Positions 17,872 through 37,590 of a DNA stretch of 37,696 nt are shown here, piece by piece. The notes beneath the pieces are model-generated. The model did no database searches, was not told where the DNA came from, and saw nothing but the letters and a program-made list of their open reading frames with translations. A program made the translations under genes and the position numbers. The stretch comes from Deltaproteobacteria bacterium (lineage in GTDB: Bacteria; Desulfobacterota; Binatia; UTPRO1). Position 1 is the first letter of the stretch; each line of letters starts with the position of its first letter. The DNA lies in contig JAJCZP010000084.1 in NCBI GenBank assembly GCA_029262315.1, positions 1 through 37,696 on the forward strand. Direction: 5' to 3'.

Positions 17872-18120
17872 GAGGTAGCCCCCCCCTGGAAGCATTGGAA
17901 AGCAGCGGTTGTCCCGTCAACAACTCCACAACGACAGTCGTTCAGACCCTCCGCGCCGCTACATCCAACCACCGATCGTGCCAGGTGACGAGTCCGCTCT
18001 CAGCTCGAGAATCCCGTGCTGAGCGCACGCCGGGGGAGTATCGGCGCTTCAGATCCCGTTACTGCCACCGCCTGCCACGAAAGTGCAAGGGCTACCGCGA
18101 AAATCCATGAATTTGACCAG
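17872..18120. other. Spacer with candidate promoter for the secreted-protein gene
   Basis: This 249-nt gap separates the dehydrogenase gene from the secreted-protein gene, both on the - strand. A TTGACG (17920-17915) and a TCCAAT (17899-17894) on the - strand have 15-nt spacing, short for a sigma-70 promoter and therefore doubtful. A run of nine G residues in the transcript sits just upstream of the ATG and may act as ribosome site. No gene or RNA was recognised. Confidence 0.35.
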
Positions 18121-19416: not shown

Positions 19417-19465
19417 ATGCGCTCCTTCGACTTCTTGTACCGGCGTGCCGGCACGGGAAATTCGT

Positions 19466-20407
19466 TCAGCTGCCATCGACCTCACCTACCTCGCATCGCC
19501 GCAGCGCGGCGAGAATCGTCGCGCGATGACGATCGATCGCCCGCCCTATGAACACCGCCTGGCTCTCAGCGCTCCCGTCCGGAAGCTTCAACCAGGACGT
19601 CTCGACACGCCCACACGTGACATTGAACAGGCAATGCCATTCGCGACCATGGAGTCGCACGAGGCCCTTCGCCCGAATGACATCGTTCGGTAGCGCTGCG
19701 AGCGCACGCTCGAAACGCCCCTGGTCCAACGCATGACGGCTCCGATAGCTGCACGAGCCAAAGGCGTCGCGCGCCAGGTGATCGCTGGCGTTCGGCCCGC
19801 CGCGCTCTCGGTAGGCCGCAACCCCTGTTGCGAATAGGATGTCCGCATCGACCGCCCCGTGGACGGCGCGCAGCTGCAATGCCCGTCCGTTCAGCCGCCG
19901 CAATCTGCGCACCACACGCTCGACTGCGCGCTCCTCGATGAGATCCGTCTTGCTGAGCACCAGGAAGTCGGCCGCCTCGATCTGCCGGCGGACGACCTCC
20001 GCCTCACGCAGACAGCGCTCGATGTTCACGACATCGACAACCGCCGTGACAGCATCGACACGCAGCCCAGCGCCCCGTACGCGATACGCCATGGGATCGG
20101 GATCAGCCAGGCCCGTCGACTCCACCACCACCAGATCGGGCCGGGCTGTGGCGACCAACTCCTGGATCGCCAGGTCGAACCTGTACTCGTCGATCGAGCA
20201 ACAGATGCAGCCATTGGAAAGCTCGACCATACGCTCGACCGCATCCAACCCGGTCACCACTCGGCCGTCGATCCCGATATCGCCCAGCTCGTTCATGACG
20301 ACGGCAACCCGCTTGCCGCGCAGGCCGTGGGTCAACACGTGGCGCAAAAGCGTCGTCTTCCCGCTCCCGAGAAAGCCGGTGAGGATATCGACGGCGACCG
20401 CACCCAT
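19466..20407 (-). CDS. CobW/ZNG-family G3E GTPase
   Basis: A 313-aa P-loop metallochaperone GTPase. P-loop GFLGSGKTT is residues 11-19; NELGDIGID is the switch I region; the metal motif C67-x-C69-C70 (NGCICCS) is intact; ESTGLADP is the Walker B region and SKTDLIEE the base-specificity motif. The C-terminal CobW_C domain carries GREWHCLFNVTCGR. Family members hand zinc, cobalt or iron to client metalloenzymes. No Zur-type operator was recognised upstream; the gene sits 4 nt after an alkaline-phosphatase-superfamily gene, whose products need bound metals. A link to metallation of those enzymes is conjecture. Confidence 0.92.
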   Translation of the reverse strand: MGAVAVDILTGFLGSGKTTLLRHVLTHGLRGKRVAVVMNELGDIGIDGRVVTGLDAVERMVELSNGCICCSIDEYRFDLAIQELVATARPDLVVVESTGLADPDPMAYRVRGAGLRVDAVTAVVDVVNIERCLREAEVVRRQIEAADFLVLSKTDLIEERAVERVVRRLRRLNGRALQLRAVHGAVDADILFATGVAAYRERGGPNASDHLARDAFGSCSYRSRHALDQGRFERALAALPNDVIRAKGLVRLHGREWHCLFNVTCGRVETSWLKLPDGSAESQAVFIGRAIDRHRATILAALRRCEVGEVDGS

Positions 20408-20411
20408 GCGA

Positions 20412-21809
20412 TCAGGCGGGCGGAACGAGCGAGCGACCGATCATATCGGGCGGAATCTCACACCCGAAGAGCGCCAACAACGTCGGCGCGACATCGTAGA
20501 TGGACGCGACCCCGAGATCGCCAAGACAGGGGGACGTGCCGCCGACACTCGAAACGACGAGGATCCCATGCCAATCGTGATTCGCCTCGTCGGGGCCGGT
20601 GTCGTTCTCGAACGTATGGATACCTCCCATGCCTACGGCGCCGACCGAACGCCAGTCGAGGTCGCCAAAGTACACGAGCAGATCAGGGGCAACGCCACGG
20701 ACCTGCCGGTAGATCTCCTCGGGGCGGACGGCCCGCGAGCGGAGCGGTAGACCGTTCTCATCCGCCAGCGCCTCGATACCCGCCACGAGATCATCGCGTA
20801 CGCGTTCGTAGTCGCCGGGATCGATCGTGCCCTCCGGTTCTCGCCCGCGCACATTGAGGAAACATCGGCCATAGTACCCGCCATCCCCCCAGGCTCGCGT
20901 GCGACCCCAGTCGATAGGCACGCGCCCGATGGGCGTCGGCTCTCGCGGCGTGGCCCCGAGCGTCAGGAACCGCTCGCGCATCAGCCACTCGTTGAAACAC
21001 AGCCCACCGGCCATGCGCTTGGAGCCGTGGTCGGAGACGACCACCACGATCGTGTCGTCGGACACCAGCGCGAGCAACGCCGCCAACTCCTCATCGAGCG
21101 CGCGGTAGTAGTCGCGAATCGCCGTCTCGAAGGGATTCCCGGCCTCGTACTTCCTGTGCGCGGGGTCCATGAAGCTCCAGAAACCGTGGTGCATACGGTC
21201 GAGACCCATCTCGACCATCATGAAGTAGTCCCACTCCTGCGAGACGATCAGGTGACGCGCCACGGCCCAATGCTTGCGCGTCTTCGCATACACACGCTCG
21301 AGCAAGCCAGCTTTGTCAGACGTGCGAAAATTCTCGACATCGAACACATAGCCGTCGGCCACCCGCTCGACCTCCGACTTCAGTGACTCGGGGAACGTGT
21401 ACGACGATTCATTGGTGGGCGTCAGGAAGCAGCTGACCATCGCGCCCCGAATCGGACGCGGTGGATAGGTCTGCGGCACCCCGAGCACGACCGACCGCTT
21501 CCCGGCGCGGCCCAGCAAATCCCAGAGACGCGGCTCGCGTACGAGCGACGACGTAGCGAACGCGTACCCGTCGTACGAATGATCCTTCCGGTTGCGGAAC
21601 CCGTACAGCCCGAGCTGCCCCGGGTCCTTGCTGGTCATCATCGATGTCCACGCCGGCACCGTAATCGGCGGGCTCGTGCTTTCGAGCTCGGCGCGCGCGC
21701 CACGAGCGATCAGCCCATCGAGCGTCGGCATCTCGGCTCGATACGTGTCGTAGGTCAGGCTCGGAGGAGCTGAATCGAGCCCGATGACAAGAACCTTGGG
21801 ATGCCCCAT
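20412..21809 (-). CDS. Alkaline-phosphatase-superfamily protein, Thr nucleophile, paralogue of 12758 gene
   Basis: A 465-aa protein without signal or TM segments. D12 (IGLDSAPP), T50 (P-I-T50-V-P-A-W), D260-H261 (SDHGSK) and a later NHDWHGIL His make up the expected two-metal site and nucleophile. The first 60 residues match the protein at 12758-14437 in layout (G-L-D, M-P-x-L, T-x-P-A-W-x-S-x-M-T), as do VLGVPQTYPPRPIRG and LNVRGREPEGT, so the two are paralogues in one cluster. ATG 21809 was taken as start because MGHPKVLVIGLD matches the beginning of the fold; an alternative at 21827 adds six residues. Predicted cytoplasmic phosphohydrolase or phosphodiesterase, substrate unknown. Confidence 0.86.
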   Translation of the reverse strand: MGHPKVLVIGLDSAPPSLTYDTYRAEMPTLDGLIARGARAELESTSPPITVPAWTSMMTSKDPGQLGLYGFRNRKDHSYDGYAFATSSLVREPRLWDLLGRAGKRSVVLGVPQTYPPRPIRGAMVSCFLTPTNESSYTFPESLKSEVERVADGYVFDVENFRTSDKAGLLERVYAKTRKHWAVARHLIVSQEWDYFMMVEMGLDRMHHGFWSFMDPAHRKYEAGNPFETAIRDYYRALDEELAALLALVSDDTIVVVVSDHGSKRMAGGLCFNEWLMRERFLTLGATPREPTPIGRVPIDWGRTRAWGDGGYYGRCFLNVRGREPEGTIDPGDYERVRDDLVAGIEALADENGLPLRSRAVRPEEIYRQVRGVAPDLLVYFGDLDWRSVGAVGMGGIHTFENDTGPDEANHDWHGILVVSSVGGTSPCLGDLGVASIYDVAPTLLALFGCEIPPDMIGRSLVPPA

Positions 21810-21875
21810 CAAACACGCGCGGCGCAACCGTCCACGCCGTGGACCATAGTGTCTTTCCTCGACCGGGGCAACGCG

Positions 21876-23207
21876 TCAGCCGGCACCACGGAGACGGGCG
21901 CCCGCGGCCATCAGCATCCGAGGATACATCGCGAGGTCGGCACCTCGGATCATCACGGTTTGCCGGACGCTCGCCCCGGACTCACGGACGAACGCCACGA
22001 GCAGCATCGACGAGGCAATCGTATAGGACACGGCTGTCGAACACGCCGCTCCGGCGATACCGAATCGCGGAATCAAGAGCACGTTCAGAACGCAGTTGAT
22101 CGCGAGGGCCACACTGGCAGCCAAGATGTTCACCTGTTGACGATTCCGGCTCGTGAAGTTCCTGGTGAGGATCTGGTACATCGAGATCATGATGATACCC
22201 GGCAACATCATGAACATGGGCGTGATCGCGGGCGTGTATCGGTCGCCGTAGAAGAAGGGTAGCAACTGACTCCCCATACCGACGTACAACACCGCGGCCA
22301 TCGTCGTCGCGAACACGGTATGCCGACACGTGGTGCTCGTCCGCTGGTGCGCATCGGCCGCCGAGCTCCCCGCGAGCTTCGGAAAGATCACCGTTCCGAC
22401 GGCATCCGGAATGTGCAGGATCGGATTCGTGACGTTGATGGCGATCGAATAGAAAGCGACTTCCGCGGGGTTGAGGTAATACGCCACGAGGTAGAGCCCG
22501 ATACGGTAGTGCAAGTGAGACGCGAGCGTCTGGAGGTACGACTTCAGCCCAAAGGTCAGGGTGCTGCGCCCGACATCCGCGGTCCAGTGCAGCCTGAATT
22601 TGGCCACGCGCCGCACCCGGTAAAGCAACCAGAGGTTCACCCCCGCGAGCACGATGACCTGCGAGAGGAGCGCTTCCCACAAGCCCCCATGAAACAGCAA
22701 TAGCGCGCTCGCCACGCCGCCAAAGCCGAGAATCGCCTTGTACACCGACTGTAGCGTGTACGCCCGAAACTCCTCCACGGCTTGCAGGATGGAGAGAAAG
22801 TAGCTCTCGATCAGGATGAAGGGGATCAGCAAGAGCACGAGCCACACGAAACTCGGCGGGGCTCCTTTCGTGAACGGCGCCAAGAGGCTTTGGCCTCCCG
22901 CGAAGCACACGCCCAGCATGGTGGCTGACAAGATGAGGCAGAGGACGAACGCGTTGGACGCCACTACCTCGATCGGGATCTTGCGCTTGCGAATCTGGTA
23001 GACGTTCGCCTGCGCCACCCCCATCTTCGTGAACGCGACGAGTGTCTGCGGCAGCAGCAGCAGGAGCGTGAACAGACCCCGATCGTGGGGACCGAGAATC
23101 CGCGCCGTCAGAATCCCTGTCCCGAGCCCGAAGACCACGAGCATCCCTCGGGAACCAATGATGCTCACAATGTCGAGGAGCATGCTCCCGCGCGGCTTCG
23201 TCGTCAC
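21876..23207 (-). CDS. Polysaccharide flippase (Wzx/MATE-like, MOP superfamily)
   Basis: A 443-aa polytopic protein with about 12-14 hydrophobic helices, of the oligosaccharide/lipid-linked sugar exporter group. The early helix reads FGLGTGILTARILGPHDRGLFTLLLLLPQT, the A-R-x-L-G-P-x-x-x-G-x-F signature of Wzx-type proteins. A mid region reads YYLNPAEVAFYSIAINVTN, and IFPKLAGSSAADAHQ occurs in the later half. It would flip undecaprenyl- or other polyprenyl-linked glycan to the periplasmic face. The start is GTG 23207, overlapping the TGA of the upstream membrane-protein gene (GTGA). An ATG at 23183 is the alternative. Confidence 0.9.
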   Translation of the reverse strand: MTTKPRGSMLLDIVSIIGSRGMLVVFGLGTGILTARILGPHDRGLFTLLLLLPQTLVAFTKMGVAQANVYQIRKRKIPIEVVASNAFVLCLILSATMLGVCFAGGQSLLAPFTKGAPPSFVWLVLLLIPFILIESYFLSILQAVEEFRAYTLQSVYKAILGFGGVASALLLFHGGLWEALLSQVIVLAGVNLWLLYRVRRVAKFRLHWTADVGRSTLTFGLKSYLQTLASHLHYRIGLYLVAYYLNPAEVAFYSIAINVTNPILHIPDAVGTVIFPKLAGSSAADAHQRTSTTCRHTVFATTMAAVLYVGMGSQLLPFFYGDRYTPAITPMFMMLPGIIMISMYQILTRNFTSRNRQQVNILAASVALAINCVLNVLLIPRFGIAGAACSTAVSYTIASSMLLVAFVRESGASVRQTVMIRGADLAMYPRMLMAAGARLRGAG

Positions 23208-25117
23208 ACGTCCCCCTGGACGATCAGGGGTCGGAGCCGATAGACGGCCCCTGCTTCGATCTCGGCGGTCTTCTCGCATCGCGAGAGCAGTTCGTCCCAG
23301 AGCCCCAACACGCGCGTACCCACCGGATTGATTCCGGGCTTCGCACGCTCCGGCTCGCGCACCACGTGGGTGACACCAAACGCTTCGAGCCGGGCGACGA
23401 ACTCGTCGACCGTCGCAATGCTCCGGTAGTCCATGGCCCCCTGCTCGAGTGGACTCGCCAGCGTGAATCGACGCTCCAGATGGTACGGGTGCGGAATCAT
23501 TCCCAGGATCAAGACGTTGCCGTCAGGAGGAACCTCCGCGTTGACCAGCGCCCATAGCGGATAGCGGCGTTCGTATCGTGTCAGGAACTCTTCTGACGTC
23601 ATCGCCCCCACGGCAACGCGCGCGGCGTCGGGCCAGCCGGGCGCCATCATGCGGAGCGACAGTGCCGCCTGCCCGACCACGGTCAACGCCAGGACGAGTG
23701 TCGCGACACGACTGGCCACCGCTCCATACGCTCGTAGCGAGTCGACCGCGCGCACCGCCACGATCAGGAGCAACGGCAAGGCGGGATGGATGTAGCGCGG
23801 GTGCGGCCACATGCCGATCACGATCGTGACCGCGTAGCCGAGCGCCAACCCCCCAAGCAGCCACGCCCGGGGATCTCGGCGCAGCAGGAGCAACCCCGGT
23901 GCGAAAGCCAACACGAATGGCCCAAGGTCGTACGCCGAGCGGCTCCCTTCGCCGAACGAATGCGGTGCCATGGTGACGTCCCAGGGAAAGCGAACACGGT
24001 CCGCGAGTGAGTCGTAGGATCCACTCTCACGCTTGCGGGCCTGATTGTCACGATAGGCCTGGTAGTAGCCGTCGAGACCAGCCGCGGCCTCGGCGCTCCA
24101 GTGCGCGCCTCCGAATACACCATACCCGAACGGAAAGATCGGGTTCCCGGTCGCGGCGGCGTTGCGGAGATAGCACGGGGAGGCGACCAATCCCGCGACG
24201 AGGCCAAACGCGACGACCGTGCGCACCGCGGCCCCAGTCGCGCCCAGCCCCTCCCGATGGAGGATACGCCCCAGAATCACCAGGCCCAGCAGGCCGCAGG
24301 CCAGCAGGCCCATGATCTTCGTGCCACCCGCAAAGCCTGCCATCACCGCACCAATGGCGAGCCACGGCTTTGCCCCCGAGTCCCACCAAGCGAGCACCGC
24401 CGCCACCGCCAGCAGAACGTACACTGCCAGTGCGAACTCGACCCACGCGCGGGTCATGAGCGTCGCCGTCATCGGCATGGTCAAAAACAATCCCGCCGCC
24501 CACACACCCACGCGTCGCCCGAACACCCGGCGTCCGACGGCGAACACCGCGAGGATGGCGAGCCCGCCGTAGGTGACGTTGATCAGACGGGCCAGCACGT
24601 CGCCGCGCAGCGCGAACGCGGCCGCGAAGAGCATGTTGACGAGATACTGAAGATAGCCCCAGAACGTCCACGGGGTCTCGAACAACGCATGCGTCTCCGC
24701 GTACAGTCGAGGATAGACTAGATGGTACTTCGTCTGGTCACCGCCGACTGGCGGGGCGAGATTGAACACGATCTCGACACTCACCAGGAAGACCCCGAGA
24801 AGCACGATCGCGACCTCGGAACGCGCCGGCTCACTCTCCCGCCAGCGCCGCACACCACGCGCCGCCAACGCACAGGTCGCCACCATCTCGCGCCGCCCGT
24901 ACCATGCCGCGCCAGCCACGACCGCGAGGACGGAGGCCCCGTGCAATAGGCCCGTGAGCCCCAGCGCCAGCGTCACGTATGCGAGCAGTCCGAAGCTCAA
25001 CGCGACCGCGAACAGGCTCTCTTCGAGCAGCCATGGGAACGGGACGCCGCGGAGCATCCGCCGCCCAGCACCCAGAGCAACCAGCACGAGGGCGACCATC
25101 AGGAGCAGATCGAACAT
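23204..25117 (-). CDS. Polytopic GT-C-like membrane protein (putative polyprenyl-sugar-dependent glycosyltransferase)
   Basis: A 637-aa protein with more than ten hydrophobic helices and a soluble C-terminal region of about 130 residues. The early loop PPVGGDQTKYHLVYPRLYAE contains an Asp and a Tyr-His pair placed as in GT-C enzymes (ArnT/PMT/DUF2029-like). Several TM loops carry Arg-rich turns (VGRRVFGRRVG), and GNPIFPFGYGVFGG follows. GT-C enzymes move sugars from polyprenyl phosphate donors on the periplasmic side. The DPM1-like transferases in this window could make such donors. ATG 25117 is one base after the stop of a small TM ORF. Exact family is not certain. Confidence 0.75.
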   Translation of the reverse strand: MFDLLLMVALVLVALGAGRRMLRGVPFPWLLEESLFAVALSFGLLAYVTLALGLTGLLHGASVLAVVAGAAWYGRREMVATCALAARGVRRWRESEPARSEVAIVLLGVFLVSVEIVFNLAPPVGGDQTKYHLVYPRLYAETHALFETPWTFWGYLQYLVNMLFAAAFALRGDVLARLINVTYGGLAILAVFAVGRRVFGRRVGVWAAGLFLTMPMTATLMTRAWVEFALAVYVLLAVAAVLAWWDSGAKPWLAIGAVMAGFAGGTKIMGLLACGLLGLVILGRILHREGLGATGAAVRTVVAFGLVAGLVASPCYLRNAAATGNPIFPFGYGVFGGAHWSAEAAAGLDGYYQAYRDNQARKRESGSYDSLADRVRFPWDVTMAPHSFGEGSRSAYDLGPFVLAFAPGLLLLRRDPRAWLLGGLALGYAVTIVIGMWPHPRYIHPALPLLLIVAVRAVDSLRAYGAVASRVATLVLALTVVGQAALSLRMMAPGWPDAARVAVGAMTSEEFLTRYERRYPLWALVNAEVPPDGNVLILGMIPHPYHLERRFTLASPLEQGAMDYRSIATVDEFVARLEAFGVTHVVREPERAKPGINPVGTRVLGLWDELLSRCEKTAEIEAGAVYRLRPLIVQGDV

Positions 25118-26408: not shown

Positions 26409-27182
26409 CTACCCCACGCCGCCGGCCCGATGCTCGGAGACCTCGGCCTCAGGAGCGGGAGCCGGCGTGGGCGTCGCAGCGACCGCCGGCCGTCGTGCAT
26501 GCTTCTTCCGCAACATGAAGCGCTTCTTGAACAGGAAGAAAAGATTATAAAGACCATCGCGCCAGACGTTCAGCTTCGACACGCCAATGCGCTCTCCGTA
26601 GTAGATCGGCATCTCGAACGACCGAATACCCGGGTGCGTAAACGCCTCGATCTTGATCTCTTCCGACAGCGCCATCGAATCGCTCGTCAAGTCGAGATCC
26701 GCGAGGATCTCCTTCTTGAACATCCACATGCCCGACTGCGAGTCGACGATGAACTTGAAATAGAGAAGCATCATCGTCCCCGAAAGGACCGCGTTGCCGA
26801 GGAGGCGGATCGGATTCTTCGTATCGCCGTTCTTCGAGTACCATCGGCGCGCCGTAATGAAGTCGACGTTCTCCTCGAACATCACATAGAGGAGGAGCGG
26901 AAGGCTATCGGGCGGATAGGTCCCGTCGCCATCCATCGTGACGATGATGTCACCCTTCGCAGCCGCGTACCCCGCCTTGTGCGCATAGCCGTAGCCCTTG
27001 CGCGACTCTGGCACGACCCGCGCACCACGCTCGGTCGCGGCCTGCGCCGTGTTGTCCGTCGAACAGTTGTCGACGCACACCACTTCGTCGATACAGTCCG
27101 GCATCTGATCGATTACCTCAGCGATGCCATCCTCTTCGTTGTGACAAGGGATGACAACGGAAACTCGCTTTCCTCGGTACAT
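26409..27182 (-). CDS. Family 2 glycosyltransferase (polyprenyl-phosphate sugar synthase-like)
   Basis: A 257-aa GT-A enzyme: VSVVIPCHNEEDGI, C-V-D-N-C-S-T-D-N-T (nucleotide), T-M-D84-G-D86-G-T-Y-P (metal motif), SQSGMWMFKKEIL and YYGERIGVSKLNVWRDG. It resembles DPM1-like and the GT2 at 7309-8088, but with D-G-D instead of D-A-D and a shorter C-terminus; the last 30 residues are Ala/Pro-rich and variable. A clear ribosome site (ggagg, 6 nt before ATG 27182) sets the start, so the longer frame (to 27629) is rejected as antisense to the radical SAM gene. 149 nt lie between it and that gene, the longest spacer in this part of the cluster. Confidence 0.92.
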   Translation of the reverse strand: MYRGKRVSVVIPCHNEEDGIAEVIDQMPDCIDEVVCVDNCSTDNTAQAATERGARVVPESRKGYGYAHKAGYAAAKGDIIVTMDGDGTYPPDSLPLLLYVMFEENVDFITARRWYSKNGDTKNPIRLLGNAVLSGTMMLLYFKFIVDSQSGMWMFKKEILADLDLTSDSMALSEEIKIEAFTHPGIRSFEMPIYYGERIGVSKLNVWRDGLYNLFFLFKKRFMLRKKHARRPAVAATPTPAPAPEAEVSEHRAGGVG

Positions 27183-27331
27183 TGAGGGCCTCCAGTCGGA
27201 TGCCGGCACGGGCCGGCGGTCGGGGGGTTGGGCGACGGTCGGGCGACCGCCGATCGTTGGACATTGCGAGGCGCGCGAACTCCAGGACGGGCCGCGCGCC
27301 ACGCCTTCACAGATGTGGTGAGAGGGAGGTG

Positions 27332-28654
27332 CTACTGCTGCACGCCACCGTGAGTCTCGGTACTCTCGGGCTTGGCCGTGCCGTTGGCCACTCCAGCGGG
27401 CGGCGTCGTGCCGTTCAACATCTTCTGATTGTGCTCCTGAATCGCGCCATTCACGCACGCGTGCCCTTCCAATTCCTTCACGATCACCGACTCCGGACGC
27501 TCCTTGCCGGTAACCTTGCGGAGATACTTCCGGAATTTGAGGCTGCCCCACTCCTTCAAGATTCTCGGCATCATCCGTGGATTGAAGAGAATGTTGACGG
27601 TGAGAAAACACTCGTACGTACAGAAACACTTGGTATCCCGGATGAATCGACGCGTCTCATCCGCTTCCTTGCTGTACCAGATCTTCTTGAAGTCGTAGCC
27701 GGCGTCGCGCACGTTCCCGATCTTCCGATCGATGAGGAGCTCGCACGGCAGCACGTCGCCGTTGGCGAACATGCACGCCCCGAGACTGCCCGCGTAACAC
27801 GGGATCTGGTACGTGTTCGTCTTCGCTACCTCGGCAATGAGCTGGTGTCGGACGATCCGCTTGGCGTTGATGAAGTCCGCGAACGGGAACGTGTCGTATC
27901 CAGTGAGCGCACCGCTCTTCATGTCCTGTTCGATCATGTCGGCGTAGTGCTCGTACTTCTTCACATCGAAGAACTTGGCGATCGACTCCTTCGGGCTCCC
28001 GCGGGTGAGGAGCGTGAACACGTTGTCCACGTCCAGCTCACGGCGAAAGTACGCGTAGTTCTCCTTCAGCACATGGTCGTTGTGCGATGAGACCGTGGTC
28101 TCGATGTTCACGTTCAGCCGCGGGTAGTGCTTCGAGAGCTTCTTCAGCTCTTTGTAGGTGTTGATCGTGCGCTCGAACAATCCGGGGAACACCCGAATCT
28201 CATCGTGCAGCGCACCGACGCCGTCCATCGAGACGTCGACGCCGAAGTCCAAGTCCGGACACGACTTGAGCACGTCCTCGACAATCTTGAGTGTGCGCGC
28301 GGTCGTGCTGCCATTGGTCGGAATACCGACGTTTCGCACACCGGTATTCTTGTAGAAGATCTTGACGATCTCGCCGATGTCCTTGCGCAGGAACGGCTCG
28401 CCACCGGTCGGCAAGAGAAACATCAAGCTCTTGCCCATGCTGGCCGTGACCTTGTCGAGCTCCTCGAGCGAGAGCTCTTGCTTCTTGAACTGCATCGACG
28501 GCGTCTCCCATCCCGGATGCGCGCCGTCCGCCAGCAGGCAGTGCTTGCATTTGGCGTTACACGCGTCGGTGATGAAGTACACCATGTACACGGGCATCGA
28601 GCCCTTCTTCGAGAACATCCGGGTGCCGTGCTTGAGGTAGTCCAGGTAGCCCAT
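27332..28654 (-). CDS. Radical SAM protein with SPASM-type C-terminal cluster
   Basis: A 440-aa radical SAM enzyme. The first cluster motif is C32-x3-C36-x2-C39 (CNAKCKHC); TGGEPFLRKDI is the SAM-binding GGEP; GVDVSMDG and NVNIETTVSSHN match the barrel strands. The C-terminal Cys set (I-P-C-Y-A-G-S-L-G-A-C, LPCELL, KCFCTYECF) matches a SPASM/twitch cluster. SPASM enzymes modify peptides or serve cofactor and glycan pathways; no precursor peptide gene was identified beside it. The last 50 residues (GTTPPAGVANGTAKP...) are Thr/Pro/Gly-rich and disordered. ATG 28654 has aggagg 8 nt upstream. It sits between two GT2 genes. The 3' spacer holds gccggc inverted repeats at 27202-27217, perhaps an intra-operon hairpin. 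Confidence 0.93.
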   Translation of the reverse strand: MGYLDYLKHGTRMFSKKGSMPVYMVYFITDACNAKCKHCLLADGAHPGWETPSMQFKKQELSLEELDKVTASMGKSLMFLLPTGGEPFLRKDIGEIVKIFYKNTGVRNVGIPTNGSTTARTLKIVEDVLKSCPDLDFGVDVSMDGVGALHDEIRVFPGLFERTINTYKELKKLSKHYPRLNVNIETTVSSHNDHVLKENYAYFRRELDVDNVFTLLTRGSPKESIAKFFDVKKYEHYADMIEQDMKSGALTGYDTFPFADFINAKRIVRHQLIAEVAKTNTYQIPCYAGSLGACMFANGDVLPCELLIDRKIGNVRDAGYDFKKIWYSKEADETRRFIRDTKCFCTYECFLTVNILFNPRMMPRILKEWGSLKFRKYLRKVTGKERPESVIVKELEGHACVNGAIQEHNQKMLNGTTPPAGVANGTAKPESTETHGGVQQ

Positions 28655-28666
28655 GCGCCGATCCTC

Positions 28667-29698
28667 CTAGTACTTCTGTCCAGCAACGTAAGTCGCGATA
28701 CCGAAGAGGCTTCCCACTCCGGCAGCGACGAGTTCTATCATTAAAATGCCACAACCTTGGACCCACGACTGCACCCCACCGTACCGATGCAGGAGCCGAA
28801 GGAACGGGACGTTTAGCATGACTATAGCGACCAGGGCGAGTACGAGCGCCCCGAAAAATGCCGTCTGGCTGGTCACCAGGCCACCGAGGAGCGCCGCCAG
28901 CCCCAGGAGCGCCAATGGGACGCTCACAATGTATCCCGTCGGGACCGACGTGTCGTTGGCGACTCCCGCTTCCGAGCGTTTTCTGAGCTTCAACCTCGCA
29001 AGTGACATAGAGCGTAGGAAGTCGACCCGCAGCAGCCCTGCCAGATCGTAGCCCTTCACATGCTCCACCTCGAGCTCGGGGAAGATCCTGATGCGGTAAC
29101 CCATGCGTGCAAGCTTCTGCCCGAAGTCGGTATCCTCGATGTTGGGGTTCGTGTAGTTGAGGTCGAAACCGCCAGAATCCACGAACGCTTTCCGTCGGAT
29201 CGCTGCGGCTGTGGTGTAGAAGAGTGGCACGTCCTCACCCGCACGACGCGCGTACGTGTGGTACATCCACAGATTCTTGTACAAGCTGCATGGATTTCGG
29301 AAACGCATCTCTGGCGCCTGGACGGCCATCGCACCGTCGATCTCTGGATCGTCGAAGGCCTCGGACAGGCGCGCCAACGTATCGGGACGAATCATCACGT
29401 CCGAGTCGATGAAGAACAGAATGTCGCCTCGCGCCACCTCGGCACCGATGTTCCGGGCACGACCTGGCCCGAGTCGTCCGCCGCTTGGCACGACCCGACA
29501 CCCATGGGCCTCGGCGATCGCTGGCGAGCGATCCGTCGACGTGTCGTCGACGACGATCACTTCGTAGGATACGTCACCCCTCGTCGCCCGGACCGAAGCG
29601 AGACATTCATCGAGTAGCCCTTCGGCGTTGTAGACGGGCATCACGATCGAGATCCGCGGATTCGTATCTTCACGATCGGACGGGCTACGCGTACTCAT
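28667..29698 (-). CDS. Family 2 glycosyltransferase with C-terminal TM helices
   Basis: A 343-aa GT-A enzyme: ISIVMPVYNAEGLLDECL, V-V-D-D-T-S-T-D, LGPGRARNIGAEVARGDILFFID98-S-D100, and YTNPNIEDTDFGQKLARMGY (the E-D acceptor-side motif of GT2). Two or three TM helices near residues 255-335 anchor it. It probably adds a sugar to the lipid-linked intermediate at the cytoplasmic face. ATG 29698 overlaps the stop of the upstream sulfatase-fold gene (ATGA); its stop lies 12 nt before the radical SAM gene, whose ribosome site overlaps it. Confidence 0.92.
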   Translation of the reverse strand: MSTRSPSDREDTNPRISIVMPVYNAEGLLDECLASVRATRGDVSYEVIVVDDTSTDRSPAIAEAHGCRVVPSGGRLGPGRARNIGAEVARGDILFFIDSDVMIRPDTLARLSEAFDDPEIDGAMAVQAPEMRFRNPCSLYKNLWMYHTYARRAGEDVPLFYTTAAAIRRKAFVDSGGFDLNYTNPNIEDTDFGQKLARMGYRIRIFPELEVEHVKGYDLAGLLRVDFLRSMSLARLKLRKRSEAGVANDTSVPTGYIVSVPLALLGLAALLGGLVTSQTAFFGALVLALVAIVMLNVPFLRLLHRYGGVQSWVQGCGILMIELVAAGVGSLFGIATYVAGQKY

Positions 29699-31716
29699 CG
29701 CGCATCCCCCGCATCGGCGACGTTCCGGTCCATCGTGCCGATCGCCCCTTCGAGATCGGCCTCCATCCGCGCCACACGATCGGGATCCTCGGCTGCGAGA
29801 TTGTGCATCTCGTCAGGGTCCTCCGCGAGGTCGAAGAGCATCTTCTCTCCTTGCGAGGTCAGGATGAGCTTGTACGGCGTGTCGTACACGACGCGGAGCG
29901 CACGATTGTAGACGTTGCCGTATACAGCCACGAACTCCGGATTGATGTGCTCCTCGGCAAGATTCACGTGCGTCACCTGCTGCAGAGGCTCGCCCTCGAC
30001 GGCCGCTGGGGACTCGGCTCCGATGGCCCGCAACACGGTCGGCAGGATGTCGACGATCTGTACCGGCTCCGTGACCTCGCCGCGAGGACGATCGGCGCCC
30101 GGCAGCTTGACGATGAGCGGAACGTGCAGCAGGCCCTCGTACATCATCCGGCCCCCGTGCCCGACCTGATCATGCTCTCCCAAGAGTTCTCCGTGATCCG
30201 ACGTCACGACGATCAACGCGTTCTCGTAGCGTCCCCGTCGCTTCAGCGCCTCGAGCAGCTCGCCGATCGCCTCGTCCATCGCCAGTATCTGTCCGTCGTA
30301 GTTGGCAGTGACGAACTCCTGTTCCTCAGGCGTCAAGCCCGCCGGAATCGCGTGCGTAAAGAGGCCCTTCAGTGCGAGTCGGTCGGCCCCCGGCAAGTCA
30401 CGCGCCCAGAGATCGTATGGGGCGGCCGCCAACCAATGATGTGGCTCGAGATAGTTGATGAAAACGAAGGCCGGACGTCCCTGCGGCAGGCCGTCGAGCC
30501 AGTTCAACGCGGCTGCGTTCAGTTGGCGAGCACTTCGAAAGGGCTTCTTGAATGAGGTCGGCGAGAACCGCTGCGCCAAGCGGACCGCGTGCGGCACCGG
30601 GCGGAGCAGGAGGCTCGGATGATCCTCGTAGTAGTGGAAGCCCTGTGCCATGCCGAAGCCTCGGTAGAGATTCGCAAAGTTGGCAACGAATCCTGCGGTG
30701 GCCCATCCCCGCTCCGACAGGAGTTCCGCCAAGGTCGTGTGCTCCTCCGAGAGCGGAAATACCCGACGGCGACCGGAAATGAGGGGACCAGAATGCCATC
30801 CGCCCGCGTAGTGGGCACCGTGGCTGCTGGGGAACTTCCCGGTGAGCATCGACGCGTGCCCAGGGACCGTCCACTGCGCAGGCGAGCGTGCCTCGACGAA
30901 GTTGAGACCGTCCTCGGCGAGCTCGGTCAGACGCGGCGACGTCTCGCGATGATAGCCGTACGTCGACATATGGTCAGCGCGGGTCGTATCGAGCGAGAGC
31001 AAGATGACATCGGGCGCACCCGCGGCGGCAGTCGCGCCGTCATCAGGGGCCGAGAACGGCGCGATCGAGAACGGATGACCCCAAACCATCGCGACCACGG
31101 CTGCCGCGGCAAGCTCGGCGCCGAATCGAATGCCCGGCCGTCGAACGATACCGCCAATGACGCGATCAGCGAGAACGGCCAGAAGCGGCAGCGCTGCCAC
31201 GAGAAGCGGGAGCGTCGCACCACTCGGCTCCTCGTGCGCGAAGTACGTGCTCTGTACTTGGCTGATGCCGGCCTTGCCGAGAGCAGTCGCCCCCGTGGCC
31301 AACACCGTGATGTGGAGGAATCCGAGCACGCCAGACCCGGTACGCGCCAGCCGCACACCGAGCACGACAGCCGCAGCCGCCAGCCCTAAGAACAGCGCCT
31401 CCGCACGCCAGCCAGGGGGCTCGTAGATGCGAATGAGGCCGAACGCCGCGGTCAACGCGAGTGCCAGCGCGACGGCGTTCCTGCTCCAACCGACCGCACT
31501 CAGGATGGCGCCCACGAGAATACCCGCCACCCCGGCGACGGCGAGATCCAGGCCCAACATGACCAGGGCGGCCCGCACTGGGATGACGCCGCCGAACGCC
31601 CAGTTCGCCGCCGCTTCGACGAGCCACCACACCACGCCAGCGGCGAACCCCGCCGCAAGCCCCGTCATCATTCCGTTCGCGATACTGCGCGACGGTATCG
31701 TTGCGTCAGTCGACAT
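29695..31716 (-). CDS. Membrane-anchored sulfatase-fold protein, Thr in place of formylglycine Cys
   Basis: A 673-aa protein with an N-terminal multi-helix region (about residues 15-235) and an extracytoplasmic sulfatase-fold domain. D243 in SLDTTRADHMSTYGYHR and D507-H in SDHGELLGEHD build the metal site. The nucleophile motif is Q-W-T283-V-P-G-H-A-S-M-L-T-G, with Thr and without the Cys/Arg formylglycine signature. NYLEPHHW and GHGGRMMYEGLLHVPLIVK are usual for the domain. The layout equals that of the 14456-16345 protein, but helix sequence differs. The gene overlaps the GT2 gene and has a strong ribosome site (ggaggag, 11 nt upstream). Expected: phosphotransferase or phosphodiesterase on the periplasmic side; arylsulfatase activity is unlikely. 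Confidence 0.86.
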   Translation of the reverse strand: MSTDATIPSRSIANGMMTGLAAGFAAGVVWWLVEAAANWAFGGVIPVRAALVMLGLDLAVAGVAGILVGAILSAVGWSRNAVALALALTAAFGLIRIYEPPGWRAEALFLGLAAAAVVLGVRLARTGSGVLGFLHITVLATGATALGKAGISQVQSTYFAHEEPSGATLPLLVAALPLLAVLADRVIGGIVRRPGIRFGAELAAAAVVAMVWGHPFSIAPFSAPDDGATAAAGAPDVILLSLDTTRADHMSTYGYHRETSPRLTELAEDGLNFVEARSPAQWTVPGHASMLTGKFPSSHGAHYAGGWHSGPLISGRRRVFPLSEEHTTLAELLSERGWATAGFVANFANLYRGFGMAQGFHYYEDHPSLLLRPVPHAVRLAQRFSPTSFKKPFRSARQLNAAALNWLDGLPQGRPAFVFINYLEPHHWLAAAPYDLWARDLPGADRLALKGLFTHAIPAGLTPEEQEFVTANYDGQILAMDEAIGELLEALKRRGRYENALIVVTSDHGELLGEHDQVGHGGRMMYEGLLHVPLIVKLPGADRPRGEVTEPVQIVDILPTVLRAIGAESPAAVEGEPLQQVTHVNLAEEHINPEFVAVYGNVYNRALRVVYDTPYKLILTSQGEKMLFDLAEDPDEMHNLAAEDPDRVARMEADLEGAIGTMDRNVADAGDAR

Positions 31717-31770: not shown

Positions 31771-31820
31771 ACCCGCCTGGTCTTAGTCTCCCGCCTGACA
31801 ACCCGCCTGGTCCTAGTCTC
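31771..31820. repeat. Direct repeat of 20 nt, 30-nt period, spanning a stop codon
   Basis: Copies at 31771-31790 and 31801-31820 differ at one base (tcttag versus tcctag). A shorter echo (gcctgcttagtcccc) is at 31746-31760. The right copy contains the TAG stop of the sugar-transferase/ligase gene. On the - strand the left copy has TAA at the same place, and because 30 is a multiple of 3 it stays in frame. A small tandem duplication of a gene end is the simple reading. Confidence 0.7.
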
Positions 31821-33708
31821 CGTGCTCACCGAATCGCCACAAGACGTGAAATGCAGCTCGGCGACCGTTCAAGTGCGTGACGATCCCGAGACCTACACCC
31901 ACCATGCCCCAGAAGAAGATCTGAATCGTCACATTGAAGAACACGTTGAAGTCGGCCATCGACAGGAGGAGACCAACGATCGAGCTGAAGATGGCCCACA
32001 CGATGCGCTTCATGTGCGGCTCTCGAATCCGATCGTAGCCACGGTACAGCGCGGTGAGGGTTGCCGCGACAATCCAGAGCATCAGCCCCCAACCGATCAG
32101 CCCGTGTTGCCTGATCAGGGTGAGATGCATGTTGCGGGAGATCCAAAGCTGATCGGACTCCGCGATCGAGGCGATGGCAACACGGCGGGTGCTGCCCACG
32201 CCGACCAGCAACTCGTTGAGTGGGGCCGAAAATACCTGATGCACGGCCTCACCGCGACGCTGCGCGGCCGCGGTCACCGAGGGCATGGACAGCCCAACGC
32301 CGTCTCCTGCCGCCACGGCACCGAAGAGAATGACCGCCGCCAACGTGGCGATTCCCACGTAGCGGTACCGCGTCTTCCACAGAAACACCCCGACTGTAAC
32401 GAGAAGAGCCGCGAGGCCCATGCGGGTATGGGTCAGAAAGACTCCCACGAGTGCGATGGTCGAACACCCCACCCAGAAATCCCGCTGCTCGCGTGACCCG
32501 CTATGCAACAACTGCGTCAGCAGGAACGGTATGCCGAGCACGAGGTAGGTCGCGAGCAGAATGGGACTACCGAGCGTCGACGACATCCGCGCCGCCACGG
32601 CCTCACCCAGCTGTCGGTCGAGCCCTATCTGAAGGAGGCCGATCATCGACAGCGTGACGGCAGAGAGCCCAATGACGGTCGCCACGAGGTTCGCTTCCGT
32701 ACGTGACAGCCTGGTCATCACGATGAGCAACGTCAGACAAAACCCCGTCGCGACATAGTAAAGGACACCCTGCACCGCCAGCAGCGGCTCGGGCGAGAAC
32801 GCCGAGGCTGCGAGCGTAAAGATGACGAACGCGGCAATCGGCTTGTTGACCGGCGTCTCGTAGAGACAGAGTTGATGGCGCGGTGCTCGCTGTGCCGTAA
32901 TCCAAGCCGCGCTCAGTGCAACCAGGACCTCGAACGGGCTCAGCCCGAAGCTGCCCACGTTGATCTCGAACGGAAAGTGGAAGAGACCCGGGGCCAGGGC
33001 TGAGGAGAAAAACAGGAGCGCGAGCAGGACTCCCAGCGTGAGCCAACGGTTCAACACCTTGATGAAGGTCAAGGTCACGAGCCGGACGTCCAGGTACCAC
33101 GACTGGTTCTGGATGTAGATGCGATCGTAGCGCAACTTGTCTCGCGGATGCGTGAAGTACCCTCCCCGCACCTGCGCAAGGCCGGTCATGCCCGGATTGA
33201 CCGCGAAACGGTCCTGATAGCCCGGAATCTCTCGCGTGAATGTCTCGAGGAAGATCGGACGCACCGGACGTGGACCGACGAGGTTCATCTCCCCGCGGAC
33301 TACGTTCCAGAGCTGCGGAATCTCATCACACTTGGCCCGCTTCAACATCCGGCCGACACGGGTATAGAGACCGTCCGAATGCTCCAGTAGGCGCGCGCCG
33401 ATCTTCTGCTCCGCACCGATCTCGAGCGTGCGGAACTTGTAGAGCATGAACGTGCGAGCACCACGCCCAACACGCTCGCCGGCATACAGAATCGGCCCCT
33501 TACTCGTCGCCTTGATCGCCAGCGCGATCGCGAATGCGAGGGGAGACAACAAAACAAGTCCGATGAGCGCCGCGAGCCGCTGCCACAAAGGCGTGGAGCC
33601 TCCGACGACGAGGACATCGGATCCCGGCAGGCTCGCCGCCTGCTCCTCCGGAGGAACGAGGGGCTCGGACGGTGGGGAAGAAGCGCTGGCGTGGGTGTGG
33701 AGGGACAT
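31813..33708 (-). CDS. Fusion of initiating sugar-phosphate transferase (monotopic PGT) and O-antigen ligase/polymerase-like domain
   Basis: A 631-aa fusion. Residues about 40-245 are a bacterial sugar transferase: a re-entrant hydrophobic helix (WQRLAALIGLVLLSPLAF), GPILYAGERVGRGARTFMLYKFRT, catalytic D128-E129 in K-C-D-E-I-P-Q-L-W-N-V-V-R-G-E-M, LVGPRPVRP and NPGMTGLAQVRGGY. This class moves a phosphosugar from UDP-sugar to polyprenyl phosphate. Residues from about 250 are a polytopic domain with about ten helices (CLYETPVNKPIAAFVIFTL, a long loop near AAQRRGEAVHQVFSAPLNELLVGVGS, R-N-M-H-L-T-L-I-R-Q-H-G-L-I-G-W-G), the Wzy/WaaL pattern including the H-x-x-x-x-x-x-x-G-L-x-G motif. ATG 33708 was chosen because it follows the asnB stop by 7 nt with a gagg element; longer in-frame starts lie inside asnB. 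Confidence 0.88.
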   Translation of the reverse strand: MSLHTHASASSPPSEPLVPPEEQAASLPGSDVLVVGGSTPLWQRLAALIGLVLLSPLAFAIALAIKATSKGPILYAGERVGRGARTFMLYKFRTLEIGAEQKIGARLLEHSDGLYTRVGRMLKRAKCDEIPQLWNVVRGEMNLVGPRPVRPIFLETFTREIPGYQDRFAVNPGMTGLAQVRGGYFTHPRDKLRYDRIYIQNQSWYLDVRLVTLTFIKVLNRWLTLGVLLALLFFSSALAPGLFHFPFEINVGSFGLSPFEVLVALSAAWITAQRAPRHQLCLYETPVNKPIAAFVIFTLAASAFSPEPLLAVQGVLYYVATGFCLTLLIVMTRLSRTEANLVATVIGLSAVTLSMIGLLQIGLDRQLGEAVAARMSSTLGSPILLATYLVLGIPFLLTQLLHSGSREQRDFWVGCSTIALVGVFLTHTRMGLAALLVTVGVFLWKTRYRYVGIATLAAVILFGAVAAGDGVGLSMPSVTAAAQRRGEAVHQVFSAPLNELLVGVGSTRRVAIASIAESDQLWISRNMHLTLIRQHGLIGWGLMLWIVAATLTALYRGYDRIREPHMKRIVWAIFSSIVGLLLSMADFNVFFNVTIQIFFWGMVGVGLGIVTHLNGRRAAFHVLWRFGEHGD

Positions 33709-33715
33709 GTTCGCC

Positions 33716-35683
33716 TCAGGGGTCATGGGGTGCGAGTCCATTGGGCATCGGATGAGAGGTCGAGGGCTCGATGGCGGCCGCCGCGTGCGGAACGCCGGCG
33801 CGGAGACGCTGCCAGGCATCGTGCCAGGTCATGAAGACCAATAGCGTCCACAATGGACGACTATTGTCGATACGCATCGCATCGTGTTCGGTGATCAGCC
33901 GCTCCACGACCTTCGGCTCGAACAAGCCGACCCGTCGCAGCGCCGCCGGAGACAGGACATCAGCAACCACGTCGCGAAGCTCGCCGCGGAGCCAGGACGC
34001 AACCGGGACGTTGAATCCGCGCTTCTTGCCTCGAAGGATCTCGGCGGGCACGTGGTTCTTGAGTGCCTGCTTCAAGACATGTTTCTTCGAAAAACCCTTC
34101 AACTTGACGTCACTGGGAAGCCGAGCTGCCAGCTCGACCAGCGCCGTATCCAGGTAGGGCACGCGCGCCTCCAGCGAGTGCGCCATGCTCATGCGGTCGG
34201 CCTTCGTCAGGATGTCGTCTGGGAGATACACGTGGGCGTCGATCGCCTGCAGCCTGGCCAGCCAATCCTCGGTGCCCGCGCGCGCCGCGGCCTCCCGGAA
34301 CAGCGCCGCCGTCTCGAGATTGGCACGGTACGCCGCTGTGGTGCACAGCTCTGCTTGGGCTTCGTCGGAAAGCACGACCTTCCACCAAAAGTGCCCGTCC
34401 GCAAGAGGTAAGTGCGCCCCGGCCACGAATCGCTTGGCCTTGTAGTCGAGGCTGACCTTGGCGTGCGACACAGGAATCCGCTGCACCAGGGACGGAATCA
34501 GGCGACGACCCAGCACATCCGGAAGCCGACGGTAGTAGGAGGCCAACTTCCCAGCAAGATAGGTCTCGTATCCCGCAAAGACCTCGTCTCCGCCCTCGCC
34601 CGAAAGCACGACCTTGACCGTCCGGTGCGCCAGCTCCGAGACGTAGTACACCGGGATAGAGGAGGAATCCGCGAACGGCTCGCCGAAATGATGGACCAGC
34701 GCCGGCAGAATCCGTACTGCATCCGGACGGACGACGATCTCGTGATGCTCGGTGCCATGCCGCTCGGCCACCTTCCGCGCCAGATCCAACTCGCTGAAGC
34801 TCTTCTCCTCGAAACCAACCGAGAAGGTGTGGATCTGCTGATTCGTGATCTCGCGCATCAGCGCCACGAGTCCGCCCGAATCGACCCCACCAGACAGAAA
34901 CACGCCGACGGGCACATCCGACAACAGATGACTCTTCACCGACGCTCGCAGTGTCTCCAGAACCTCCTCCGCGTAGTCCTCGTGACTGCGCGTGCGTGGT
35001 GCCGGATCGAAGCGAAGCGTCCAGTACCGCCGCTCGACCTGCCGACCGCCATCCTCCACCGTGAGTTGGCACCCCGGCTCGAGCTTGCGAACGTTCCGAA
35101 AAATGCTGCCCGGCGCCGGGATATACCCCAGCGACAGATAGTGGTGCAGGCTCTCGAGATCGAGTTCTTCGCACCAGCCGCTCACGATCAAGGGCGTGAC
35201 TTCGGACGCGAACGCCAAGCCCGCGTTCCCCGTCGCCACGTACAACGGTTTGATGCCGACCCGGTCACGCGCGAGGATCAGACGGCGCCGGCGCACATCC
35301 CAGAGTGCGAGGCCGAACATGCCATCCAGAAAACGAACGAAGTCGTCGCCGTACTCCTCGTACAGGTGCGGAATCACCGAAACGTCGGAATGCGACGGCA
35401 TCCTGTGGCCCTTCGCCTCGAGCTCGAGGCGCAGCGTCGGCGAGTTGTAGATCTCGCCGTTGCAGACCACCTGCACACTCCCATCCTCGTTGCTGATCGG
35501 CTGATGCCCACCGCCGAGATCGTTGATACTGAGACGGCGCATGCCCATCCCGAACGTGCCGTCGCGATAGAGGCCTTCGTCGTCGGGACCGCGATGAACG
35601 ATCGCGGCACACATGCGGCGCAGAACGGCCTCCTCCACCGGAGGACCTCCATGGCGCCCCAACTGTCCGACGATTCCACACAT
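33716..35683 (-). CDS. asnB: Asparagine synthase-like glutamine amidotransferase (AsnB family)
   Basis: A 655-aa two-domain amidotransferase. N-terminal class II glutaminase: Cys2 nucleophile (MCGIVGQLGRHG), HRGPDDEGLY, RRLSINDL, NGEIYN. C-terminal ATP pyrophosphatase: SGGVDSGGLVALM (PPi loop), SVGFEEKSFSELDLAR, EPFADSSSIP and LSGEGGDEVFAGY. Members in surface-glycan loci amidate uronic acids (WbpS-type) rather than make asparagine; that fits a UDP-HexNAc 6-dehydrogenase in the same cluster. The initiator Met must be cleaved to free Cys, so ATG 35683 is fixed. The gap to the deacetylase gene is 4 nt. The last 35 residues after TWHDAWQRLR are Pro/Ala/His-rich and not conserved. Confidence 0.92.
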   Translation of the reverse strand: MCGIVGQLGRHGGPPVEEAVLRRMCAAIVHRGPDDEGLYRDGTFGMGMRRLSINDLGGGHQPISNEDGSVQVVCNGEIYNSPTLRLELEAKGHRMPSHSDVSVIPHLYEEYGDDFVRFLDGMFGLALWDVRRRRLILARDRVGIKPLYVATGNAGLAFASEVTPLIVSGWCEELDLESLHHYLSLGYIPAPGSIFRNVRKLEPGCQLTVEDGGRQVERRYWTLRFDPAPRTRSHEDYAEEVLETLRASVKSHLLSDVPVGVFLSGGVDSGGLVALMREITNQQIHTFSVGFEEKSFSELDLARKVAERHGTEHHEIVVRPDAVRILPALVHHFGEPFADSSSIPVYYVSELAHRTVKVVLSGEGGDEVFAGYETYLAGKLASYYRRLPDVLGRRLIPSLVQRIPVSHAKVSLDYKAKRFVAGAHLPLADGHFWWKVVLSDEAQAELCTTAAYRANLETAALFREAAARAGTEDWLARLQAIDAHVYLPDDILTKADRMSMAHSLEARVPYLDTALVELAARLPSDVKLKGFSKKHVLKQALKNHVPAEILRGKKRGFNVPVASWLRGELRDVVADVLSPAALRRVGLFEPKVVERLITEHDAMRIDNSRPLWTLLVFMTWHDAWQRLRAGVPHAAAAIEPSTSHPMPNGLAPHDP

Positions 35684-36771: not shown

Positions 36772-37590
36772 TCATTGATTGTCTCGTGGTTGCTGACTCT
36801 CGACCGGTCCCGAGGCCGATCCGATGATCGCTCCGCGCACACGACGCCAACGCTCCATCCCAATGACTCGTTTGCCCATGGCCTTCAGGAGGTACCCGCA
36901 CTTGAGCGACGCCATCGTCACCGCCCGCCCCTCGAGCACCCGCTGCATAAACGTCGTCGACGTTCCGCTTTTCACCGCGATCCGCGGAACGTGATAACGG
37001 TCGGTGCGGCGATCACAGAGCCCGGGTTCGCTGGTGCAGAACATGTCGTACCCGCAGTCGGCAAGGACCGCCCCGATGTCTGGCGGCGCGGTACCGCGCG
37101 GCAACGAGGCCACCGTAACCGGACGACCGAGACCGTCCTCCAACACGCGCTTCGATTCCCGAAACTCCCGCTCGATGTCAGGCAGCGCCAAGCGCTGCAT
37201 ATGCGGATGCGTCAGCGAGTGGCTACCGATCTCCATGCCGCCGTCCGCCATCGCACGCAGCTCTCGCCACCCGACGTACCCGGGAGCACCGACCTGCCCC
37301 GCAATGATGAAAAAGCACCCAGTCCAGCCCCGCGCTTGCAACATCGGAAAGGCCACGGAGAAGTCGCTCGCCGATCCGTCATCGATACTGAGCACGAATC
37401 GCCGCCCGGGCCCGGCGCTCTGCGCGTCGGCCAAGGCACACGCCTGGCCGCCCGCAGCCGCGAGGGCGTCGAGGTGCTCGGCAAAACGCGCGCTCGTCAG
37501 CACGTACGGTCGATGCGCGGGACTCACACGTGCGCGCGCAGCCTCGTCGGAGACGAAGTCGTGGTACACGTAGATTGGTACGCCTGACAC
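36772..37590 (-). CDS. Polysaccharide deacetylase family protein (short form)
   Basis: A 272-aa NodB-like protein with VPIYVYHDF at the N-terminus, F-V-L-S-I-D-D-G-S-A-S-D-F (metal Asp pair), G-S-H-S-L-T-H-P-H-M (H-x3-H), and SLPRGTAPPDIGAVLADCGYDMFCTSEP. It lacks a signal peptide, so a cytoplasmic or exported-without-signal position is unclear. The C-terminus (KCGYLLKAMGKRVIGMERWRRVRG) is basic and amphipathic and might contact membrane. The start GTG 37590 has no clear ribosome site. It lies 22 nt upstream of the long deacetylase gene; both would act on the same glycan but share only the motifs. Confidence 0.88.
   Translation of the reverse strand: MSGVPIYVYHDFVSDEAARARVSPAHRPYVLTSARFAEHLDALAAAGGQACALADAQSAGPGRRFVLSIDDGSASDFSVAFPMLQARGWTGCFFIIAGQVGAPGYVGWRELRAMADGGMEIGSHSLTHPHMQRLALPDIEREFRESKRVLEDGLGRPVTVASLPRGTAPPDIGAVLADCGYDMFCTSEPGLCDRRTDRYHVPRIAVKSGTSTTFMQRVLEGRAVTMASLKCGYLLKAMGKRVIGMERWRRVRGAIIGSASGPVESQQPRDNQ

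Follow-up and report, generated by a model that had tools for sequence, protein, structure and literature searches.

A phosphoglycosyl transferase fused in one chain to a ligase-fold membrane domain that lacks the usual catalytic histidine

To our knowledge, the matching of the first and last steps of Wzx/Wzy-type polysaccharide assembly by the cell is little understood. Undecaprenyl phosphate is scarce and shared. One gene in the window analysed here (the whole 37,696-nucleotide stretch of DNA, from a draft genome of 298 contigs) gives this question of coordination a concrete object, a conserved single chain that combines an initiating enzyme with a ligase-fold domain. A first-pass annotation had proposed that the protein joins a phosphoglycosyl transferase (PGT), initiating on the cytoplasmic face, to an O-antigen ligase or polymerase-like domain acting on the periplasmic face, so that one polypeptide would link the first and last membrane steps. 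Does the second half of this protein still carry out a last step, or has it been kept for something else? The gene and its parts are the following.

31816–33708, minus strand: fusion gene (PGT plus O-antigen-ligase-like membrane domain), 631 aa, with stop codon TAG at 31813–31815
33052–33579, minus strand: monotopic phosphoglycosyl transferase domain (Pfam PF02397, residues 44–219, E=1.2e-50)
33322–33327, minus strand: Asp-Glu dyad D128-E129 within DEIPQL (alignment including PglC)
33031–33051, minus strand: junction motif NRWLTLG, residues 220–226 (alignment of fusions)
31816–33048, minus strand: C-terminal WaaL/Wzy-fold domain, about 12 membrane helices (predicted secondary structure and fold comparison)

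The C-terminal half (C-half) was found in 26 of 98 near genomes, and the same 26 were found among 148 genomes searched for the class, probably Binatia; they fall into four family groups (f1, which includes the window, f5, f6 and f8). In all 26 the PGT and the C-half lie in one frame, and all 16 loci in a second collection are fused as well; these come from several sequencing projects and largely from the same genomes as the 26. The survey of homologues thus turned up neither two separate genes nor a sequencing error at the junction, and the single protein of the first-pass annotation stands. In the window sequence the frame is open further upstream, to an ATG at 33819. The ATG at 33708 was taken as the start: it lies 7 bases past the asnB stop codon (33716–33718), has GAGG just 5' of it, and in f1 relatives the frames start at about this point, with similar MS(L/M) sequences. 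In some genomes the open frame is longer, up to 1284 aa, and could suggest a triple fusion with AsnB; in the frames inspected, the extra part reads as out-of-frame asnB ahead of the fusion. At the junction, RW-TLG is kept in 24 of the 26 fusions and is absent from both f5 fusions. In an AlphaFold2 model of moderate confidence (built from 17 sequences; pLDDT 70.1, pTM 0.58), NRWLTLG lies within a helix predicted to extend from the end of the PGT into the first helix of the membrane domain.

The fused PGTs also have a common history. In a tree of the PGT domain, 20 fused sequences group in a single clade (100/100), apart from the 23 further PGTs of the class that were included; since they sit on one branch, one fusion event explains the sample. 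The tree and the identity comparisons given below cover 20 genomes, with six of the 26 fusions outside them, and the non-fused set was drawn from 29 matches, 25 of them with loci, of which L154 and L149 were left out. Further afield, a profile of the C-half at 1e-10 found matches in four of 395 phylum-sample genomes, two of them with fusions from the known set and two carrying standalone proteins (G215 and G250), with no further fusion in this sample (at most four candidates scored per genome). In a plasmid collection 1003 records match, none over more than 80% of the query, and among the matches listed (15 of 1003) only the PGT part is matched; a fusion with a diverged partner would escape this search. 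A fusion of the same family is also present in L054, a record titled as a Klebsiella pneumoniae metagenome-assembled genome, a title that is probably mislabelled.

The PGT half appears intact. The PF02397 match of the window protein spans the full domain at about 171.9–175.1 bits (cut-off 27), and the fused domain is above the Pfam cut-off in all 26 fusion genomes. The complete PGT motifs described in the first-pass annotation are present, with the dyad at the residues it had named: KF(R/K)T, DE-PQL, GPRP and PG-TG-AQ occur in 26/26 fusions, and D128-E129 is invariant in the 25 complete ones. We take D128-E129 and the residues of the KF(R/K)T, GPRP and TG-AQ motifs to be catalytic, as in other PGTs. 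P56, in the region where a re-entrant membrane helix with its proline would lie, is invariant in 25/25; a crude text pattern for this region matched 20 of 26 fusions. In fold comparison, the N-terminal part of the model aligns with WbaP (8t53, Z 18.8) and PglC (8g1n, Z 17.5). Taken with the gene context, these motifs make it very likely that the PGT half starts the polysaccharide. By its family and intact motifs, it would act at the cytoplasmic face, with a nucleotide sugar as donor and undecaprenyl phosphate as acceptor of the sugar phosphate. PF02397 occurs in two genes of the window genome, the fusion and a second gene at another place.

The C-half is less readily assigned by family score. 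Of the domain searches proposed for the two halves, PF02397 came out well over its cut-off, while PF04932 (Wzy_C) did not: on the full window protein it matches residues 418–505 at 16.1 bits, below the cut-off of 31.7. With the window C-half alone, one cut gave Wzy_C at 16.5 bits (E 0.0073), and a slightly different cut showed only a sub-threshold DUF2231 among Pfam families at E<=0.01; the NCBIfam model TIGR00947 (IctB family) matched at 2.3e-9, far under the cut-off of that model. Among 15 C-halves of the family, matches at E<=0.01 were found to Wzy_C in seven, TIGR00947 in 11, TIGR03097 (O-glycosylation ligase) in six and the RfaL model in one. Across the 26 genomes, the Wzy_C score of the fused domain is above the cut-off in one (G002, 35.3 bits) and below it in nine, with no match at E<=0.05 in the other 16.

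Fold comparison gives a clearer picture. The modelled C-half aligns with the O-antigen ligase WaaL (7tpg_B) with Z 24.2 and rmsd 4.3 over 344 residues, covering residues 236–616 of the protein (211–591 of the model); FtsW and RodA come next (Z 12.2–15.5), and Foldseek returned the same families. A profile of 15 fused C-halves matches the two standalone ligase-like proteins of the phylum sample (3.9e-15 and 2.8e-13), which have normal ligase motifs with the His present. Together the fold and profile matches answer the low Wzy_C score, below the cut-off in 25 of 26 genomes: on the predicted model, the C-half has the WaaL/Wzy fold, and the Wzy/WaaL character first read from its helices is upheld. 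When solved structures were searched by sequence, there was no match with the C-half profile, nor with the canonical Wzy protein P0005.

The genes around the fusion place it in a polysaccharide cluster, of which the following lie in the window.

36775–37590, minus strand: second polysaccharide deacetylase, at the contig end
35691–36863, minus strand: polysaccharide deacetylase
33719–35683, minus strand: AsnB-type amidotransferase, adjoining the fusion upstream (TIGR03108-like, 576.1 bits, cut-off 816.9)
29698–31716, minus strand: sulfatase-domain protein, the next gene downstream of the fusion (Pfam)
28670–29698, minus strand: GT2 glycosyltransferase
27335–28654, minus strand: radical SAM/SPASM protein
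26412–27629, minus strand: GT2 glycosyltransferase
21879–23279, minus strand: Wzx/MurJ-type flippase
18124–19485, minus strand: UDP-glucose/GDP-mannose dehydrogenase

After the second GT2 gene come, in order, genes for a YdjM protein, a methyltransferase, a 655-aa protein (no Pfam match; read as GT-C-like) and the Wzx-type flippase, followed by a phosphodiesterase-type protein, a CobW protein and the sugar dehydrogenase. AsnB adjoins the fusion in all 20 regions of relatives examined. Its likeness to TIGR03108 raised the idea of an exosortase (XrtA) cluster, which was set aside: an exosortase is present in nine of 21 genomes, and in none of the nine does it share a contig with the fusion.

A family search found a canonical Wzy_C gene on the same contig and strand as the fusion in 19 of the 26 genomes; the distance upstream is 4 to 13 kb in 18 of these and 32 kb in G055. 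Of the other seven, five have the fusion on short contigs (G051, G067, G068, G086 and G091); the sixth is G035, where the 36-kb contig C46 (L109, L110) carries the fusion with no canonical Wzy_C found there, and the seventh is the window genome (G000). In the window genome, the end of another contig, C24, carries genes for NusG-like, OPX, Wzz, BcsQ-like ATPase (scoring just below its cut-off), Wzy_C (with PPHNSY) and GT4 proteins. This is the order found directly upstream of the fusion in relatives, and the continuity of C24 with the contig of the window (C84) rests on gene order only. With a canonical Wzy_C beside the fusions or on C24, the pathway very probably already has a normal polymerase or ligase.

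These canonical proteins allowed the active-site columns of the C-half to be compared, and four positions of the window protein are central.

32422–32424, minus strand: R429 (in THTRMG), corresponding to the SRSG arginine in canonical Wzy_C (alignment)
32254–32259, minus strand: R484-R485 of the large loop, with R485 in the column of the loop arginine of 20/20 canonical Wzy_C
32134–32136, minus strand: R525, in the column where canonical Wzy_C have the catalytic His, which is absent here (alignment)
32125–32127, minus strand: H528, three residues past the lost His (alignment)

In the column of the catalytic His of WaaL, the His of the H-N motif, none of 25 fused domains has His, as against all 20 canonical Wzy_C proteins, the columns being paired by a weak profile alignment (E=3.9e-5, 70.6%; 25 and 20 rows). 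An hhalign comparison of A1 with the three-row A3 is weak as well (1.1%, E 0.049) and gives an identical register. The 25 rows leave out L028, which ends at a contig edge and whose visible end is likewise without His there. The 20 canonical proteins are the 19 near fusions and the one on the syntenic contig of the window genome; excluded were G000b, elsewhere in the genome, and G000c and G001weak, read as other kinds of protein. As a control, 31 canonical Wzy_C matches with loci (six of them among the 20) have the His motif in 30 cases, 29 by pattern (L039 with spacing two residues longer) and L078 by eye; the exception, L068, has Tyr and no His motif.

The neighbouring positions divide the family. 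At the H528 position, His is found in 14 of 25 fusions (14/14 of f1, f8 and f5) and Asn in the remaining 11, which are all of f6. Both the SRSG arginine and the loop arginine are present in 11 of 25 fused domains (six of f1, including the window, and five of the six of f8) versus 20/20 canonical ones, and neither is present in f6 (11/11), f5 (2/2) or one f8 member. From their spacing, we take R429 and R485 to correspond to the undecaprenyl-pyrophosphate-binding arginines of WaaL. The loop arginine is replaced by a Cys-Gly...Cys pair in all eleven f6 rows (L014, L015, L017 and L019–L026) and in the odd f8 row L027; it is possible, judging from the residues, that this pair in the large loop forms a disulfide.

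Despite these losses, the C-half does not look like a decaying domain. In 20 genomes, mean identities within and between family groups were compared for the fused C-half and the canonical Wzy. Within groups they are 75.0 and 66.8% (f1), 70.4 and 62.9% (f6) and 73.3 and 60.4% (f8) for C-half and Wzy, respectively; between groups they are 41.0 and 37.1% (f1-f8), 31.4 and 31.0% (f1-f6), 35.3 and 30.8% (f1-f5), 32.7 and 25.7% (f6-f8) and 31.3 and 26.8% (f5-f8), and only f5-f6 is reversed (33.3 and 35.1%). In eight of nine family comparisons, conservation is thus slightly higher for the C-half than for the canonical Wzy. A decaying C-half would diverge fast, and this one does not, so selection seems to maintain it for some role, although good conservation would also be expected of an active enzyme. 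R409, D410 and W412 are invariant in the C-half, a hint of a contact.

The explanation that we think best, and hold to be reasonably probable, is a functional PGT joined to a ligase-fold membrane module that is conserved and probably not catalytic. The fusion would be the initiating PGT of a Wzx/Wzy-type exopolysaccharide cluster, and its C-half, a WaaL/Wzy fold without the conserved catalytic His, would most likely no longer transfer glycan: with no His in any complete member, and the usual catalytic residue lost, a helper or anchor is a more likely role than that of a second working enzyme. As a selected membrane module, the C-half would keep the PGT at the membrane, and it may serve as a docking site for the lipid-linked product or for canonical Wzy, Wzz or Wzx from the cluster; such docking would place initiation beside polymerisation. 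The claim that one chain links the first and last membrane steps is therefore supported for the single chain and the intact PGT and is not supported for the last step, in view of the His column (0/25 versus 20/20) and of the 19 genomes out of 26 in which a canonical Wzy_C gene shares contig and strand with the fusion.

It is nevertheless conceivable, though on balance unlikely, that the fusion is a two-sided bifunctional enzyme, in which the PGT starts the glycan on the cytoplasmic side and the C-half, by means of a displaced His, carries out transfer or polymerisation of the finished glycan on the periplasmic side. The window protein has R429, R485 and H528 together, the modelled fold is that of WaaL, and the C-half is the better conserved in most family comparisons. 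Activity through H528, one helix turn away, is possible chiefly for f1 and f8, the His being present in 14/25 members and both arginines in 11/25. There is precedent for a two-sided chain in WadA, which combines a cytoplasmic glycosyltransferase with a periplasmic ligase (PMC9938171). Chemistry can also shift within this fold: according to PMC10449877, the catalytic His of WaaL is His338, and RodA, which shares the fold, is proposed to use Asp262 instead, so that loss of the His is in itself no proof of inactivity. Against the bifunctional enzyme, the canonical His is absent from 25/25 members; the arginines are missing from f6, f5 and one f8 member, with Asn at the H528 place in f6; and a canonical Wzy_C is already in or near the cluster in 19/26 genomes.

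A rather doubtful alternative, with the same non-transferring C-half, is that of a pseudo-ligase regulator, which would bind the undecaprenyl-linked glycan or the canonical Wzy and signal its state to the PGT across the membrane; were it true, initiation would follow demand at the end of the pathway. That the C-half was simply inherited as a membrane anchor, binding neither a partner nor lipid, much like the four-helix bundle that large PGTs carry at their N terminus, is quite improbable. The loss of catalytic-type residues and the smaller share of invariant positions in the C-half (39/412, against 63/184 in the PGT half) would fit such an anchor, but a multi-helix domain of about 410 residues, with its full fold and mean identities of 31–75%, would be a costly one, and invariant R409, D410 and W412 suggest a contact. 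That two genes were merged by a sequencing or assembly error, an idea to which a draft in 298 contigs lends itself, is refuted by the conserved single frame (26/26 genomes with the C-half and 16/16 loci in the second collection) and has practically no probability left.

Several known systems resemble the favoured working PGT with a ligase-fold module, and the nearest described relative is WadA of Brucella, with an N-terminal glycosyltransferase and a C-terminal O-antigen ligase (PMC9938171). As in the fusion, a cytoplasmic transferase is fused ahead of a ligase-type domain; however, the first domain of WadA is a core glycosyltransferase, whereas that of the fusion is a PGT that would initiate on undecaprenyl phosphate, and WadA keeps its ligase His (H605 in a figure legend of that paper), which the fusion family does not (0/25). 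Large PGTs of the WbaP type share the catalytic domain and, presumably, the role in starting a Wzx/Wzy polysaccharide. According to PMC10942596, their catalytic domain is preceded by a DUF and by what is predicted to be a four-helix bundle; in the fusion the catalytic domain comes first and the membrane module after. As PF02397 begins at residue 44 of 631, there is no room for the bundle and DUF, and the fusion is not a large PGT. The Bi-PGT class (O'Toole 2021, cited in PMC10942596), in which a functional domain is fused N- or C-terminally to the PGT core, is similar in plan, and no ligase-fold partner is named in the passages of PMC10942596 consulted. WaaL (7tpg) and the canonical Wzy_C proteins are alike in fold (Z 24.2) and related in sequence through the C-half profile, but they have the catalytic His, absent from all 25 fused members, and the fused domain passes the Pfam cut-off in only one of 26 genomes.

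Thus fused PGTs and one transferase-ligase fusion were already known, while the pairing of a PGT with a ligase fold that has lost its His was not found described. A literature search (titles and starts of abstracts) gave no PGT fused to a ligase-like domain, in agreement with the initial impression that the combination is not a characterised protein; a mention in the O'Toole 2021 survey is possible. If the catalytic His has indeed been lost while the domain stays conserved, a glycan polymerase or ligase fold would have been re-used without its chemistry. For annotation, naming the fusion a 'PGT plus O-antigen ligase' would overstate its function.

Other features of the window may be recorded. 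The radical SAM/SPASM protein (27335–28654), between the two GT2 genes, has 80–83% identity in five f1 relatives, above most of its neighbours. Proteins of the sulfatase/phosphodiesterase superfamily recur in or near the cluster, at 29698–31716, 14459–16345 and 20415–21827 (Pfam) and at 12758–14437 (from its translation). The 365-aa protein at 16801–17895 reads as secreted, with no match in Pfam (0.001) or NCBIfam (1e-6). Two COX3-type genes at a short distance from each other (1928–2557 and 2835–3455) lie beside COX15/CtaA and UbiA genes.
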